Shown: positions 1 to 5,402 of the stretch, in pieces
Numbering within the stretch: the first letter of the stretch is position 1
How the letters are laid out: the number at the start of each line of letters is the position of its first letter
Source of the DNA: an uncultured bacterium
GTDB lineage: Bacteria; Patescibacteriota; Minisyncoccia; Spechtbacterales; HO2-43-30
Assembly (NCBI GenBank): GCA_913054525.1
Contig: CAJXHR010000054.1
Location: forward strand, 1-5,488
DNA length: 5,488 nt
Direction of reading: 5' to 3'
Translations under genes and position numbers: made by a program
The notes under the pieces: generated by a model
Database searches by the model: none
What the model saw: the letters and a program-made list of their open reading frames with translations, nothing else
What the model was told of the DNA's origin: nothing

Positions 1-897
1 TGCATCCACGGTACAATTCAAGAACATTTTGCCTCCGCAGAACTCGACGAAGAACAAATACGGGAGCTTCAACCCGACCTTGTGCGGCTTTGTGAAAAAA
101 GACCTTCCTGGAATCCCACACTACAACAAACCTCAAGCTGTTATCACGAGATAGGTCATCTCTCAATGTATCTTACTGGTGCTGATGTAAATGCTGCTAC
201 CGCGGTCTGTGAGGCTGTTGGCATAAAAGAAGACGGGAGAAATTACCTTCAGACATGCTATGAAGGAATTTTTATGCAAATATTTCAGCCGCGCGAACCG
301 GAAGATTTTGCGCTCATATATAATATCGTCCCCCTCAAAAAAAACTTGGTGGAATGTGATCAATATACCAACGGGATAGACAAGGGAATTTGTTGGGAGC
401 GAGGTTGGCGGGGGGAACTTAGTTCTTTTTGCGGTCAGTTTCCCCAGGAGATTCAGTGGGGATGCTTTCGGGAAGCGTGGATAGTGGGTAATAAGGAAAA
501 AGAAATAGAGACTTCGGAAGATATTATTGATTACTGTTCCTACTCTATGGACCCGAGGGAGCATAAGTTATGCTATAATAAGCTCTTTTTTTCGATTGCG
601 GTTCGTTTCGAATTTCAAGCAAGTCGTATGAATGCTCTATGTACAGGGATGCCGGAAGAAATAAAGGCACAGTGTTTTGCTAATATGGCTTCGCGTATGG
701 TTGAAACAGATAAAAATTTAATTGAGAGGGCAGTTGGAATCTGTGAGTATGCCCGGAAGTTTGAGCTAGAAAATGAATGCTACAAGGAGCTTCTATATTA
801 TTCAACTTTTTCCGTACATCCAGAATCTGAAGAATTTATTCAATATTGTAGTTACCTTCCAGATTTCTGGAATGCAAGATGCCGAGATAGAATTTAG
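1..897 (+). CDS. Cys/His-rich solenoid protein, paralog 1 (5' end missing)
   Basis: The frame is open from base 1 and ends with TAG at 895-897, giving 298 visible residues; the start lies upstream. The GTG at 82 is an internal Val codon, because upstream codons read CIHGTIQEHF, which matches the C-x-H-G motif of the two paralogs in this window. C-Y-H-E-I-G-H lies at residues 47-53. After it come cysteine pairs at 70/86, 119/131, 144/155, 179/191, 214/225, 248/260 and 283/294. From residue 144 the first cysteines are spaced 35, 35, 34 and 35 residues apart. This looks like an alpha-solenoid of Sel1/TPR-like repeat length with one probable disulfide per repeat. The Glu of the paralogs' H-G-x2-E motif is Gln here (H3, Q7). 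An exported location is inferred from the paralogs' anchors and the cysteine content. I do not recognise the family, and the function is unknown. It is a real gene with high confidence; the role is a guess. Confidence 0.85.
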   Translation, partial: CIHGTIQEHFASAELDEEQIRELQPDLVRLCEKRPSWNPTLQQTSSCYHEIGHLSMYLTGADVNAATAVCEAVGIKEDGRNYLQTCYEGIFMQIFQPREPEDFALIYNIVPLKKNLVECDQYTNGIDKGICWERGWRGELSSFCGQFPQEIQWGCFREAWIVGNKEKEIETSEDIIDYCSYSMDPREHKLCYNKLFFSIAVRFEFQASRMNALCTGMPEEIKAQCFANMASRMVETDKNLIERAVGICEYARKFELENECYKELLYYSTFSVHPESEEFIQYCSYLPDFWNARCRDRI

Positions 898-912
898 GCG
901 TTATAGTATAAT
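884..912 (+). promoter_or_regulatory. Putative promoter with perfect -10 box
   Basis: A perfect TATAAT lies at 907-912, in the 23-base gap after the upstream gene. The candidate -35 at 884-889 (GAGATA, 17-base spacer) matches the consensus at only three of six positions. Transcription would begin at about 919-921, which is the GTG start of the next gene, so the transcript could be leaderless. The site would drive the four genes from 921 to 4990. The -10 is persuasive; the -35 is weak. Confidence 0.5.
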
Positions 913-920
913 GAAAGGCA

Positions 921-1400
921 GTGTCATACAATTTTCTTAAAATATTTCTTACTTCTACCATACTTTTGTATTTTTACATGGGATTTTACTTCAGTAGCCA
1001 TACCTCCGAAGGAGAAGCGTACCCGTTTTTCTCCTGGTTTGTATTCACGAGAGTTCCACCTCAGTTCATAACGGGGTATGCGCTAAAAATTGTTGAATAT
1101 GAAGGTAAAAAGTTAGATTCCCCTGTCTTTTTCCAGGATTCCCACGGTATATACTTTAAAAAAATTCTAACCATGACTGAGTATGATTATACAATACGAG
1201 TCTTGGGCGAAAATATTGAACGCGGGGAAACTGAAAAGGTAGAGCAGTATCGCAAAACCATAGAGGAAAGTTTCCTATCACAACCCGTTGTTTATGAAAT
1301 AGTAAGGATTGAATTTGACACATTGAAGTATTGGAAGACGGGACAATTTACTGAAGGCGAAAGAATAGCTACCCTTACCGCTAAAGAGAAGGATTTATGA
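921..1400 (+). CDS. Small membrane-anchored protein, HTTM-associated
   Basis: This is a 159-residue protein with one N-terminal membrane segment (about residues 6-25) and an outside domain. A conserved-looking motif, YPFFSWFVFTRVPP, sits at 34-47, followed by a short beta-rich stretch near 50-72 and a helix around 100-118. I recall short proteins with a similar PFFxWxxF motif encoded next to HTTM genes, but that is memory and not a search result. The GTG at 921 is the most upstream start possible, because TGA at 912-914 closes the frame. AAAGG at 914-918 is only two bases from the GTG, too close for a normal Shine-Dalgarno, while a TATAAT box ends eight bases before it, so leaderless translation is plausible. 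Its stop overlaps the HTTM start (ATGA, 1397-1400), so the two products are probably made together and may form a complex. The function is unknown. Confidence 0.82.
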   Translation: MSYNFLKIFLTSTILLYFYMGFYFSSHTSEGEAYPFFSWFVFTRVPPQFITGYALKIVEYEGKKLDSPVFFQDSHGIYFKKILTMTEYDYTIRVLGENIERGETEKVEQYRKTIEESFLSQPVVYEIVRIEFDTLKYWKTGQFTEGERIATLTAKEKDL

Positions 1401-2380
1401 AACAAATAACAACCATTAAAAAATATCTCTCAAGTATATTTCCTTTTTCAATAGAATCTTTTGCTGCGAGGGGGAAGCCATTTACTAAGGCGAAAACCAT
1501 TGTGCAATTTTTTTATTACTTTCTTGCATTCCAAGCTCTGGTGGTTATTAATGGTGGGAAGTTTCTTTCCCAAGAAGAAAATTTTTCTCCTGTATGGTCA
1601 ATTCCATGGGCAAATCACTTGAGCCTTGCTACTACAGCAAACATTATACAATTCTTTTTTCTTATAAGCGCTTTTATCGGGGCGTTCTTTTTTCAAAATC
1701 GTATAGCCCGTATATTTGTTTTTTTGGGAATATTCCAGCTCAACGCACTGCTCAGTTCAGTATTGCGAGCTGATCATCACTGGTACCCATGGTTGTACGT
1801 GTCTTTCTTGTTGATTTTTCTACCGGATGCCTGGGCGGGGAAAGCGCATTCTCTACAAGTTCGCAAAAAATTCTTGTTGGTATTTTTTAGCGCTCAGGCC
1901 GTAACACTTTTTATATATTCAATGGCGGGCCTGGGTAAAATACAGGGCGCAATCTATCAGTACTTTGCGGGGCAGACACACGCATTTGCCCCCGAAGCTC
2001 TCGCCCTGCATATTGCCTATTGGCTGCGCAACATCGACTCAACAAGTTTACTCGGTTCCTTTTTTGTTGAGCATGTCATCGTGGGATGGCCTCTTTTTCT
2101 TGGTATGATTTACCTACAGTTCTTTTCCTTATGGATTGCCTTCAAGCCCTCCCTTCACAATATTTGGGCATTTGGGTTAATATTTATGCATACGGGAATT
2201 TATTTAACTATGGATATGCTCTTCTTCCCTACTGCCCTACTTTTAATCTTTTTGTTTTTCGATTCGCCTTTCAAAAAACACGATACTTCCTGGAGAGAGA
2301 CAGTGGGAGACTTGCCAATCTTTGGTTGGATGCTAAGACGTATATTGTTTCGCCCCGGGAATAGTCATTCAATATCATGA
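1397..2380 (+). CDS. HTTM-domain membrane protein (vitamin K gamma-carboxylase-like)
   Basis: This 327-residue polytopic membrane protein has hydrophobic segments near residues 35-51, 80-99, 103-121, 130-146, 158-178, 218-248 and 256-288. It fits the HTTM family, the membrane core shared with vitamin K-dependent gamma-glutamyl carboxylase (GGCX). Two stretches support this when aligned by eye with human GGCX as I remember it. Residues 126-140 (DHHWYPWLYVSFLLI) resemble the region of catalytic His160. Residues 174-182 (YSMAGLGKI) resemble the region of the active-site base Lys218, making Lys181 its counterpart. A further motif, MHTGIYLTMDMLFFP, at 264-278 matches the family's late helix. The large lumenal domain of GGCX is absent, so this is HTTM only. 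AGAAGGA at 1387-1393 is a good but close ribosome site, and both ends overlap neighbours as ATGA. Carboxylation is only one possibility; the substrate and cofactor are unknown. Confidence 0.82.
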   Translation: MKQITTIKKYLSSIFPFSIESFAARGKPFTKAKTIVQFFYYFLAFQALVVINGGKFLSQEENFSPVWSIPWANHLSLATTANIIQFFFLISAFIGAFFFQNRIARIFVFLGIFQLNALLSSVLRADHHWYPWLYVSFLLIFLPDAWAGKAHSLQVRKKFLLVFFSAQAVTLFIYSMAGLGKIQGAIYQYFAGQTHAFAPEALALHIAYWLRNIDSTSLLGSFFVEHVIVGWPLFLGMIYLQFFSLWIAFKPSLHNIWAFGLIFMHTGIYLTMDMLFFPTALLLIFLFFDSPFKKHDTSWRETVGDLPIFGWMLRRILFRPGNSHSIS

Positions 2381-3861
2381 AATTTGTATACTTATTTATC
2401 ATTTTAGTCGTAGGCGGCGGAGCCATATTTTTCTTGAAAGGGGTTAAGTCAGCGCCAATCGTCGAGCCGGAAGCGGAGCAGGTCCATATTATAGAATTGC
2501 GTGATGATGGCTTTTATCCTGCGGAACTTAGTATACATGAAGGTGATACGGTAACATTTAGTACCACAAAGGATAATTTTTTTTGGCCGGCAAGCAATTC
2601 TCATCCCACGCATACAATCTATCCCGAGTTTGACCCCAAGGAGCCTATAGCGTCAGACAAAGAATGGAGTTTTAAATTTGATAAGCCGGGGACATGGAGA
2701 TACCACGACCATGTCAGAGCTTCTGCTATAGGAAAAATAATTGTTATAGGCAAGAATCGGGAAGAGGTATATATGGATTGCCAGAATTTGGATAAACTTA
2801 ATGAACAAGAAAGAGAACAGTGCTGGGATTCACTCTTGTCTGACACGCTTAAGGAGAAGGGCGTGAAGGCTTCTTTCGAGGTCTTCGCAAACATTTACCG
2901 GACCGATCCCTTATTTTCATTTAAGGGGTGCCATTGGTACGCACATCGGCTTGGAGAGGAGTTTTACGCGGAAGAATATCCCAAATATAAAGATATAGAA
3001 GCGCTGGACCTACCTCCCGAAACCTATTACTGCGGCTTTGGTTTTTTTCATGGCTGGTTGGAGCATATGCTGAGAGACGATCCGGATGTAGAAAAAACGA
3101 AACGCCTTTGTGATTATCTCGACAATCAATTATCGGACGAGCGGCCGCGAATACGTTTGAATTGCTATCATGCAATCGGCCACGGCTTTGTTAACGAACC
3201 ATTCGATCCTGCAAGCTGGGGAAAAGCTCAAGAGATAATAAATCCTGCTCTGGAGATTTGCGACGGGGTCTCGAATAATCCAAATGAGGTCCGGGAATGT
3301 CTCCAAGGGGCTTTTAATGTTATCTCTGATTGGATCTTTCGGGCAGAGTACGGCCTAGCTCCTGTCATTGAGGACCCTCTCTGGCTCTGTCCTAAGCAGC
3401 GCACATATGAGCATACGAAGGCCTGCTATTATGAAATGGCCATGCATCTTAACGGCCTTGTCGGCGACGACCTTTCTAAGCTTGCTGAGTTTACCAAAGA
3501 TATTGAAGATGATAAAATCGCTTGGCTAGTCATAGATGTAGTGGCTGCGGGCGCAACGCAAAGAGCCCTTTCAAAAGATGATTATAGCGAATATATATTT
3601 GCGTGCCGTGGCCTTCCCGAACGCCTGCGGGTTGGGTGTCTGCATGGTTTCGCAGGCGGGTTTATGGCTCACGGCGAACCCGAGAAAGAGTACGTAAAAG
3701 CATTAAAATTTTGCGGTTCCGAAGAGCTTCTGGAAGACGAGAAGCATGTTTGCTATAAAAATATAATCAGGACCTTCAAGGGCTCTTATCCCCGTGAAAA
3801 AGTAGAAGGCATTTGTGCGACTATCGATGAAGCGTATCGAATATATTGCTCATACGAATAA
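2377..3861 (+). CDS. Cupredoxin-like domain fused to Cys/His-rich solenoid, paralog 2
   Basis: This is a 494-residue exported protein. A membrane anchor or signal lies at about residues 3-20. A cupredoxin-like beta-sandwich spans about 35-125, with H76-P-T-H79 and Y109-H-D-H112 as candidate metal ligands. The Cys and Met of a classical blue-copper site are absent. A helical lead-in runs about 128-183. The family core follows: C185-H186-x2-A-H190, C219 with H225-G-x2-E229, and C245 with C263-Y-H265-A-I-G-H269. Solenoid cysteine pairs then sit at 295/308, 338/350, 410/421, 446/459 and 480/491. All 16 cysteines can be paired, 14 of them at 11-18 residue spacing, which suggests an oxidising compartment. 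The start overlaps the HTTM stop by ATGA with no clear Shine-Dalgarno, implying coupled reinitiation. It probably binds copper or another metal outside the membrane. The enzymatic or sensory role is unknown. Confidence 0.85.
   Translation: MKFVYLFIILVVGGGAIFFLKGVKSAPIVEPEAEQVHIIELRDDGFYPAELSIHEGDTVTFSTTKDNFFWPASNSHPTHTIYPEFDPKEPIASDKEWSFKFDKPGTWRYHDHVRASAIGKIIVIGKNREEVYMDCQNLDKLNEQEREQCWDSLLSDTLKEKGVKASFEVFANIYRTDPLFSFKGCHWYAHRLGEEFYAEEYPKYKDIEALDLPPETYYCGFGFFHGWLEHMLRDDPDVEKTKRLCDYLDNQLSDERPRIRLNCYHAIGHGFVNEPFDPASWGKAQEIINPALEICDGVSNNPNEVRECLQGAFNVISDWIFRAEYGLAPVIEDPLWLCPKQRTYEHTKACYYEMAMHLNGLVGDDLSKLAEFTKDIEDDKIAWLVIDVVAAGATQRALSKDDYSEYIFACRGLPERLRVGCLHGFAGGFMAHGEPEKEYVKALKFCGSEELLEDEKHVCYKNIIRTFKGSYPREKVEGICATIDEAYRIYCSYE
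3804..3809 (+). promoter_or_regulatory. Ribosome binding site deciding the GTG start at 3815
   Basis: AGAAGG lies five bases before GTG 3815, a good Shine-Dalgarno distance. The competing in-frame ATG at 3827 has no such element at usable spacing. The site lies inside the end of the upstream gene. Confidence 0.55.
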
Positions 3862-4990
3862 AAGCAGAAAACTAAAGATTATACTTTTTGTTATTTTGGT
3901 TTTCGCTGTTTTATTAGAGATTGTTTTTTTATCCTCACCCAAAGAGATAAAGTTTGGTGCTGAAGAATTAAGCAATATTAAAATTACTGAAATTGCAAAA
4001 AATGAAAAGGTTTTGCAAGCTGTGGTGAAGCGGGTGGGCGTGAAAGCGGTCATGGAAAAACTGGCCGCAGAAACCGGCGGCGGGTCTTTTCTTGATTGTC
4101 ATCAGGGGGCGCATTATATCGGCAGAGCTGCGTACAACGTTTATAAGGAGGAAGCCTTTCAAAGATGCGACTCTTCATGCCATTCGGGGTGCTACCACGG
4201 AGCCATGGAAGGGATTCTGATAGAAAAGGGCAGTATTGATTTTCTTAGAAACCTTGAAGATATCTGCACGTCCTTTGACGGGGCATTCGGCGTTTTTGAG
4301 TGTTATCACGGCCTGGGGCACGCTATATTGGCTTACTTAAATTATGATCTTCCCGGCACCCTTAAACAGTGCAAAGAACTCTCAAATAGCTTTGGTTTTG
4401 AAATAAATGCCTGCTATGCGGGGGCATTCATGGAAAATGTTGTAACAGGTCAGGGCTTGGGGACGGCAAAAAGCCCTCATGCCACAGAATGGCTAAATAC
4501 GACCGACCCACATTTTCCTTGCAACAAAATTGATCAGGAATACTCCATACAGCACGAGTGTTACGGCATGCAGACAAGCTGGATGCTGTATCTTAATCAC
4601 TACAATTTTGATGAAGTTATAGGGGAGTGCTATAATGTACCCGAAAATATGGTCCTTGTTTGCTTTCAAAGTTTGGGCAGGGATATAGCCGGCTATACCT
4701 TGCGCAAGCCAGAGAGAATCGCAGAGTTATGCGGCAAAGTGCCGAAAGATAAGCACTATTATGACCGCTGTATAGACGGCGCGTTAAACGTGATTCTTGA
4801 TTTTTGGGGACCCGGCCTCAAGGACCAGGCGACCGCTCTATGCCGGCTCGTCGAAGAACCGAGCAAAAGAAGTTGTTATTCAATTTTAGCAAATGCCCTG
4901 TCTTTTATATTTCTCACCCCAGAGGAAGCAGAGCCCGTCTGTAGAAGTTTTGAGGAGAAATACAGAAATCTTTGCGCACCCCCCCGCTAA
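3815..4990 (+). CDS. Membrane-anchored Cys/His-rich solenoid protein, paralog 3
   Basis: This 391-residue protein has a basic N-terminus and one membrane segment (about residues 21-40), so the rest is probably outside. A helical lead-in containing G-V-K-A (75-78) parallels the region after the cupredoxin domain in paralog 2 (G-V-K-A at 162-165). The core follows: C95-H96-x2-A-H100-x2-G, C126-Y-H128-G-x2-E132, and C163-Y-H165-G-L-G-H169. Cysteine pairs are 151/163, 186/200, 236/249, 272/283, 306/319, 343/354 and 376/387. The first cysteines are mostly 33-37 residues apart. There are 18 cysteines in total, an even number, with extra ones at 118 and 122. It ends in the same half-repeat as paralog 2 (C-x10-C with YR before the last Cys). 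GTG 3815 is chosen for its Shine-Dalgarno; ATG 3827 is the alternative. It overlaps the previous gene by 47 bases, so the two were probably kept together for co-expression. The family is unnamed to me and the function unknown. Confidence 0.87.
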   Translation: MRLSMKRIEYIAHTNKSRKLKIILFVILVFAVLLEIVFLSSPKEIKFGAEELSNIKITEIAKNEKVLQAVVKRVGVKAVMEKLAAETGGGSFLDCHQGAHYIGRAAYNVYKEEAFQRCDSSCHSGCYHGAMEGILIEKGSIDFLRNLEDICTSFDGAFGVFECYHGLGHAILAYLNYDLPGTLKQCKELSNSFGFEINACYAGAFMENVVTGQGLGTAKSPHATEWLNTTDPHFPCNKIDQEYSIQHECYGMQTSWMLYLNHYNFDEVIGECYNVPENMVLVCFQSLGRDIAGYTLRKPERIAELCGKVPKDKHYYDRCIDGALNVILDFWGPGLKDQATALCRLVEEPSKRSCYSILANALSFIFLTPEEAEPVCRSFEEKYRNLCAPPR

Positions 4991-5192: not shown

Positions 5193-5402
5193 ATGCTCTC
5201 AGCCGCTAGAACAATTGTCCGTAAAATGAACGACCTTTTTATTTCCGCGGTTTTGGTGGTGTTTTATTTCTTCGTAGTCGGCATCACGGCATTACTCTTA
5301 TTGGCCGTCACAAAAATTAAAGGCAGAAAAAGTCAGAGTTCTTACTGGAAGAACGCAGACGGCAAAAAATTTACTGCCGATTATTTCAGGTCGCCATATT
5401 AA
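5193..5402 (+). CDS. Short SxtJ-like membrane protein (C-terminal-tail form)
   Basis: This 69-residue protein has one membrane helix (about residues 14-40), a basic stretch (KIKGRK) and a tail with S-Y-W (50-52) and D-Y-F-R (63-66). SxtJ-family proteins, as I recall them, are roughly twice this length, with an N-terminal membrane hairpin and a C-terminal tail carrying SYW and YFR-type motifs; only the last part is present here. The identification rests on that tail and on the position between DUF5989 and a carbamoyltransferase. It starts three bases after the DUF5989 stop and ends one base before the next start, so translation is probably coupled. ATG 5226 (residue 12) is an alternative start that still leaves the membrane helix intact. 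The function is unknown; it is likely a membrane partner of the carbamoyltransferase. Confidence 0.68.
   Translation: MLSAARTIVRKMNDLFISAVLVVFYFFVVGITALLLLAVTKIKGRKSQSSYWKNADGKKFTADYFRSPY

Follow-up and report, generated by a model that had tools for sequence, protein, structure and literature searches.

The window analysed here is the whole of contig CAJXHR010000054.1 (5,488 nucleotides; assembly GCA_913054525.1), from an uncultured bacterium of the phylum Patescibacteriota whose genome comprises 634 kb in 100 contigs and is 89% complete. It encodes three members of a protein family whose helical domain carries five histidines (His) in fixed order, and we conclude that the family is real and large, has a strict His signature and is undescribed in the libraries and literature searched. 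As to what the family does, we favour, with confidence somewhat short of even, the reading that its members are membrane-anchored, disulfide-stapled solenoids in which the five His, on adjacent helices, bind a transition metal (probably copper or iron), and that they work much as EfeO and EfeM do on an unrelated helical domain. The three genes and the residues discussed below, with codon positions in brackets, are as follows.

1–897, + strand: partial five-His-domain protein, 298 residues, its 5′ end cut by the contig; family profile E-value 1.4e-37
7–159, + strand: residues of the partial protein, read from the sequence: H3 (7–9), Q7 (19–21), H49 (145–147), H53 (157–159)
2377–3861, + strand: 494-residue protein with an N-terminal membrane segment, then a cupredoxin-fold domain, then the five-His helical domain
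2485–2748, + strand: cupredoxin-fold domain, residues 37–124 of the 494-residue protein
2602–2712, + strand: cupredoxin residue set H76 (2602–2604), H79 (2611–2613), D86 (2632–2634), H110 (2704–2706), D111 (2707–2709), H112 (2710–2712)
2932–3183, + strand: His-pair region of the 494-residue protein: H186 (2932–2934), H190 (2944–2946), H225 (3049–3051), E229 (3061–3063), H265 (3169–3171), H269 (3181–3183)
3830–4990, + strand: 386-residue five-His protein, no cupredoxin; ATG start at 3830 (a GTG at 3815 gives 391 residues)
4097–4321, + strand: His-pair region of the 386-residue protein: C90 (4097–4099), H91 (4100–4102), H95 (4112–4114), H123 (4196–4198), E127 (4208–4210), H160 (4307–4309), H164 (4319–4321)
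4430–4435, + strand: M201-E202 of the 386-residue protein, in an FMEN motif one helix beyond the last His pair

The His signature and the extent of the family

An earlier note on this DNA had picked out three pairs of candidate metal ligands, each spaced i/i+4. Its motifs and residue numbers are exact, both for the 494-residue protein (H186/H190, H225/E229, H265/H269) and for the 391-residue form of the last one (H96/H100, H128/E132, H165/H169; subtracting 5 gives the 386-residue numbering used from here on), and the partial protein does keep the last two motifs with glutamine (Gln) replacing glutamate (Glu) (H3/Q7, H49/H53). When the window proteins were aligned with 160 homologs, each of the five His columns was invariant (162 of 162 or 163 of 163 rows, the partial protein lacking the first pair), and Glu stood at the sixth position in 159 of 163. 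The combined alignment, from which 27 of 528 rows with more than 35% gaps were excluded, gave nearly the same result for the His: H91 is kept in 495 of 496 aligned rows, H95 in 496 of 497, H123 in 496 of 499, and H160 and H164 in 497 of 501 each. Among 239 members of gene arrays (251 rows) the counts were 226/227, 226/228, 228/231, 226/235 and 226/235, respectively. All these figures are tilted towards conservation, because members were gathered by similarity and the contig scan used two motif-bearing peptide patterns; however, a profile search supplied further array members beside the pattern matches, and all five His were retained in 217 of the 223 rows having all six positions aligned. The conservation of the His is far beyond chance; mean column identity across 52 diverse members is 18%.

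The sixth position behaves differently in the wider set, where array rows hold Glu in 112, glycine in 31, Gln in 30, isoleucine in 16 and valine in 10 of 230. The proposal that five His and a Glu are invariant therefore stands for the His, which are 99–100% conserved over 501 members in the kind of wide alignment that the earlier note had named as its test, and falls for the Glu, which about half of the array members have; a sixth invariant ligand in the form of Glu is thus ruled out. Another candidate ligand emerged one helix further on, at M201, which is methionine (Met) in 386 of 394 aligned members and is followed by E202 in 353 of 397, and five of the cysteine (Cys) columns are invariant in all 501 rows. 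As read from the alignments, the family signature is five His, one Met and Cys pairs, and the Glu marks a class.

The earlier note knew no name for such proteins, and neither Pfam nor NCBIfam supplies a model for the His domain. In a Pfam scan of 52 diverse members no family matched more than one of them; a match to sulphur oxygenase reductase (one of 52, E-value 6.3e-4) was taken as chance because it concerned a single member. A search of 5.8 billion proteins returned 310 relatives of the 386-residue protein (120 listed) and 40 of the 494-residue protein, and a profile of 52 distant members, scored against the 7996 candidates sharing most words with it, returned 288 (120 listed). Among the matches listed, no name gives a function for the His domain; some read ‘plastocyanin’ or ‘cupredoxin’, after the other domain. 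No paper on this family was found by title or start of abstract in the literature searched, which had subscription journals and preprints outside its scope.

A scan of one genome per species found 61 loci, of which 51 are labelled with groups that we take to belong to the Patescibacteria; the others are labelled ‘bacterium’ or ‘uncultured bacterium’ (8), Deltaproteobacteria (1) and Myxococcales (1). The Deltaproteobacteria locus lies on a 3.4-kb contig, has a neighbouring gene family in common with a Sungiibacteriota locus, and could be a binning error. The myxobacterial member (L049:7701–8888) is convincing: its 395-residue frame has a G+C content of 69%, matching its surroundings, retains all five His, the Glu and the FMEN motif, has a Cys after a signal-like (lipoprotein-like) stretch, and reaches a profile E-value of 1.5e-67 when searched alone. 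We conclude that the family is not confined to Patescibacteria. Within the phylum the His domain was present in 24 of 380 sampled genomes, counted from the match table, and its distribution is therefore patchy; a raw tally of 70 was set aside, as 46 of those genomes match the cupredoxin part of the profile alone, and copy numbers per genome are lower bounds, since few candidates were scored in each (4 in larger cases).

Predicted fold and the fused cupredoxin

The two predicted models are confident (mean predicted local distance difference test scores of 91.9 and 90.7), and in the 386-residue model (90.7) the His pairs lie, as the earlier note had supposed, in helices (residues 91–112, 116–133 and 152–169). 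Its placement of the proteins in the envelope also agrees with what we found, since a hydrophobic N-terminal segment, the predicted membrane anchor, is present in 255 of the 271 listed members that start with Met, compared with 22 of 271 shuffled sequences. The earlier note did not contain the cupredoxin domain of the 494-residue protein, the Cys-paired repeats, the conserved Met or the gene arrays.

The His domain is predicted to be a helical solenoid, a row of hairpins each made of a short helix A, which bears a Cys close to its end, and a long helix B, which bears a second one. Among rows with both positions aligned, both Cys are kept in 225 of 231 for 146–158, 235 of 235 for 181–195, 225 of 226 for 231–244, 221 of 226 for 301–314, 218 of 218 for 338–349 and 147 of 149 for 371–382, and we therefore predict one disulfide per hairpin. 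A further pair, C90 and C117, covaries (both present in 160 rows, neither in 60, a single Cys in 1), which predicts that, in one class of the family, they staple the first two His-bearing helices together. The same class division is seen at the sixth position: with C90 the residue is Glu or Gln in 137 of 159 rows, and without it glycine, isoleucine or valine in 46 of 59 (20 commonest classes). In three successive repeats the His pairs stand at matching offsets from the Cys position (+2/+6, and +1/+5 for the first pair), and M201 is at +6 from the Cys of the next repeat, the offset of H164.

Covariation analysis (413 effective sequences, 294 columns) supported in-register, side-by-side packing for helices B3–B4 and B5–B6 in a per-pair test, where none of 300 shuffles was as good; with neighbouring B helices pooled, 24 of 36 strong couplings fell at offsets −3 to +3, the per-pair test being the fairer of the two. 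Two His–His couplings (ranks 22 and 23) were rejected as contacts because there is almost no variation in their columns apart from a few rows in which two or more His are missing. Sequence searches of the PDB gave weak matches for the 386-residue protein (best E-value 0.43) and for His-domain profile A2 (0.12), and profile A3 reached 0.0013 against designed helical repeats with no single stretch passing alone. Foldseek with the 386-residue model returned nothing at E-values up to 0.001, and no PDB structure was conspicuous; absence of EfeO or other families from these structure-match lists does not amount to exclusion.

Residues 37–124 of the 494-residue protein have a cupredoxin fold in the predicted model, on which they count as a cupredoxin. 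Among 280 listed homologs such a domain, recognised by a short motif, precedes the His domain in 90 and follows it in 8. A set of candidate ligands is kept almost without exception among 93 members: H76 in 91, H79 in 92, D86 in 93, and H110, D111 and H112 in 92 each. The His, Cys, His (Met) set of type-1 blue copper sites was not found in the domain: D111 is aligned to amicyanin's copper-binding Cys, a column that is aspartate in 92 of 93, and the positions corresponding to the second type-1 His (residue 114) and to the Met vary. In excerpts of two papers, Patescibacteria cupredoxins are treated as electron carriers to nitrite reductase (PMC12931201, PMC5581439), and those excerpts do not mention the His domain.

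Cupredoxin fusion and the sixth position go together, Glu being present in 51 of 52 fused and 49 of 160 unfused members (a tree set of 212, uncorrected for relatedness). Of the hints that the His pocket and the cupredoxin site cooperate, this tie is the best. It also bears on the idea that the solenoids are surface proteins for binding or recognition, with the His serving as a structural zinc site or capping the first repeats through hydrogen bonds. Tandem, diverged solenoids would suit recognition, and the later repeats conserve little except Cys; however, the Glu tracks the presence of a cupredoxin, and five near-invariant His with a near-invariant Met exceed the needs of a cap. We assign this explanation a low probability.

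Gene arrays and neighbouring genes

Family genes commonly occur in rows, with two or more members in 38 of the 61 loci and up to nine within 17 kb, counts that are rough because gene calling favoured longest frames and overlooked the myxobacterial member. The nearest relative lay in the same locus for just 10 of 158 members of arrays of at least three (shuffled labels: mean 3.2, maximum 11; from a tree without branch-support values), and the arrays therefore look like sets of old, distinct types.

Such arrays are one argument for the main rival to the metal-holding role, namely that the proteins are redox enzymes that activate oxygen at a copper or iron site, mono- or dinuclear, the array paralogs taking different substrates. 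A metal site on solenoid repeats is a known design, since deoxyhypusine hydroxylase (DOHH), according to excerpts of one study, uses His-Glu motifs on HEAT repeats to form its di-iron site (PMC3306375). The small or aliphatic residues at the sixth position (glycine, isoleucine or valine in 57 of 230 array rows) could leave room for substrate or oxygen, and there is a weak link to COX1, present in 5 of 24 family-bearing genomes and 24 of 356 others (p = 0.028, uncorrected for three tests or for genome relatedness). However, COX1 was not found in the source genome, and no catalytic partner is shared by a majority of the 88 loci compared (some of which overlap). We regard this enzymatic role as unlikely, though it is the alternative we take most seriously.

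Several neighbours recall copper proteins. Separate cupredoxins adjoin the family in 15 of the 88 loci, and in 12 of the 88 there is a protein with an invariant His (12 of 12) directly after a signal-like peptide, a sign that the mature N-terminus may bind copper. This protein, present at L052:8901–9431, L054:9143–9658, L064:12356–12922 and nine other loci, often closes the array. Elsewhere in the source genome, contig C28 has two more members (one cut) directly beside a galactose-oxidase-like protein (L108:1689–3869; PF09118 on its C-terminal part, E-value 7.3e-21). The N-terminal-His and galactose-oxidase-like neighbours suggest copper. Together with the non-blue cupredoxin they suggest copper over heme, and so speak against a heme protein in which at least two of the five His, perhaps with M201, would bind scavenged heme within a groove lined by glycines. 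The glycines beside the His are indeed conserved (G163 in 501 of 501, G124 in 389 of 499, G161 in 426 of 501), and a set of His and Met is also known in heme proteins, which counts for this alternative; on balance we consider it improbable.

Contig C17 of the source genome bears one cut member and one diverged member, perhaps a degenerate paralog, in which CMMGLYKR replaces the second His motif (L109:369–1604). Two large proteins on the same stretch (L109:1585–3699 and 6781–8739), which look like FG-GAP/ASPIC proteins, contain inserted Cys-rich, helical-looking stretches that resemble the five-His hairpin repeats. The other genes of the window are listed here.

921–1400, + strand: 159-residue protein with a single N-terminal hydrophobic segment and a YPFFSWF motif, always paired with the next gene
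1397–2380, + strand: 327-residue multi-pass membrane protein, overlapping the 159-residue gene by 4 bases
5226–5402, + strand: small membrane protein without a Pfam match, which we take to resemble DUF5989
5404 onward, + strand: start of a carbamoyltransferase (PF02543, E-value 5.5e-6)

The 159- and 327-residue genes adjoin five-His genes and occur, always together, in 6 of the 88 loci (window 921–2380, L066, L068, L072, L073 and L074). The 159-residue protein had no NCBIfam match of note and the 327-residue protein none in Pfam or NCBIfam; HTTM-like or Sdp-like names, which had come to mind from size and look, were dropped when searches of NCBIfam and Pfam and an HTTM scan of the genome lent them no support. 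An unknown family of about 530–580 (typically about 560) residues is found in 9 of the 88 loci (L052:9448–11079, L065:13474–15114, L056:9135–10718 and others), often close to arrays but encoded on the opposite strand, with an AMP-binding-like gene nearby.

Possible role and comparison with known systems

The predicted envelope location, the Cys pairing, the set of His and Met, the fused non-blue cupredoxin and some copper-like neighbours are together consistent with an extracytoplasmic copper or iron site, and we infer that the five His bind metal or heme. In the mechanism we propose, the five His, with M201 and, in one class, E127, would form a metal pocket. In the Glu class, which includes nearly all cupredoxin-fused members, metal or electrons would pass between this pocket and the His/aspartate site of the cupredoxin, and the array paralogs may handle metal in differing coordination states. 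The protein would thereby act in the manner of EfeO and EfeM, two metal-binding proteins of the periplasm that belong to a ferrous-iron uptake system, though its helical domain is unrelated to theirs.

Several results weigh against this proposal. The convergence of the His on one pocket is a prediction from repeat homology, the C90–C117 pair and the helix limits of the model, and in the covariation test helix register was not significant for the His-bearing pairs B1–B2 (p = 0.27) and B2–B3 (p = 0.46) or for B4–B5, B6–B7 and B7–B8 (p = 0.08–0.12). An electron-carrier role is doubtful because the cupredoxin domain lacks type-1 copper ligands, and the tie between Glu and cupredoxin may reflect a single clade. 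Rows of many diverged paralogs are hard to square with plain metal capture. FTR1-coupled iron uptake was rejected because this iron permease showed no link with the family, occurring in 2 of 24 genomes that have the family and 16 of 356 that do not (p = 0.32); nor was FTR1 found in the 89% complete source genome. VKOR, a disulfide-forming enzyme, was rejected as a partner, being no commoner in family-bearing genomes (10 of 24) than in others (147 of 356; p = 1.0), and was not found in the source genome.

A bolder statement, which we put forward tentatively as a possibility, is that these proteins constitute a new class of metalloprotein, with a five-His, one-Met centre laid across successive repeats of a disulfide-stapled solenoid, and that rows of ancient paralogs, together with a cupredoxin bearing an unprecedented His/aspartate metal site, make up an undescribed copper or iron machine of the Patescibacteria surface. 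Patescibacteria make do with very small genomes, much of what lies on their surface has no explanation yet, and some of them devote several kilobases or more to rows of this one unnamed, strict-His family. If the metal centre is real, extracellular metal binding would gain a new protein design, and there would be a concrete, testable lead on what these bacteria obtain from their surroundings or hosts, or how they act on them. A non-blue type of cupredoxin, with its own near-invariant set of candidate ligands, comes with the family.

Known systems resemble parts of this arrangement. Plastocyanin, amicyanin and purple cupredoxin share the fold of residues 37–124 and differ in that their Cys, second His and Met ligand columns hold other residues here. 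DOHH, a cytosolic enzyme, is similar, as far as the excerpts go, in carrying metal ligands on alpha-hairpin repeats, as predicted for the five-His proteins; its His and Glu are neighbours, whereas those of the five-His family form i/i+4 pairs, and the Pfam HEAT profile matched no window protein at E-values up to 10 (HMMER filters drop most matches above 0.1). FtrB, described in part of one report as a cupredoxin that lacks the usual copper set and needs an aspartate to bind Cu2+ (PMC11966278), is alike in having that residue in a cupredoxin metal site, as shown for FtrB and suggested by alignment here; the five-His family differs in also keeping H76, H79, D86, H110 and H112, with residue 114 variable.

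EfeO combines a cupredoxin with a helical HXXE domain, EfeM is the helical domain alone, and these proteins prefer copper, iron and zinc, according to the excerpts of a further paper (PMC9174327). Their conserved motif was not found in the five-His family, the pairs of which are HxxxH, HxxxE/Q/G and HxxxH. Membership in peptidase M75 was rejected, the helical domains being unrelated by sequence: Peptidase_M75 (PF09375) had no match in the source genome at E-values up to 10, compared with matches in 7 of 14 control genomes, and none among the window proteins or the 25 of 31 families listed for 52 members. In Foldseek, EfeO (7wgu) ranked 38th (template-modelling scores 0.16/0.22, root mean square deviation 23.5 over 434 columns), and the VIA list was filled by cupredoxins. 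The five-His family, with i/i+4 spacing and five His in place of HXXE, with Cys-paired repeats and with no tie to an FTR1-type permease, belongs to neither EfeO/EfeM nor FtrB. EfeO/EfeM is nonetheless its closest working parallel, being likewise extracytoplasmic (as predicted here for the five-His proteins) and likewise pairing a cupredoxin with an all-helical His/Glu domain in one form and having the helical domain alone in the other.

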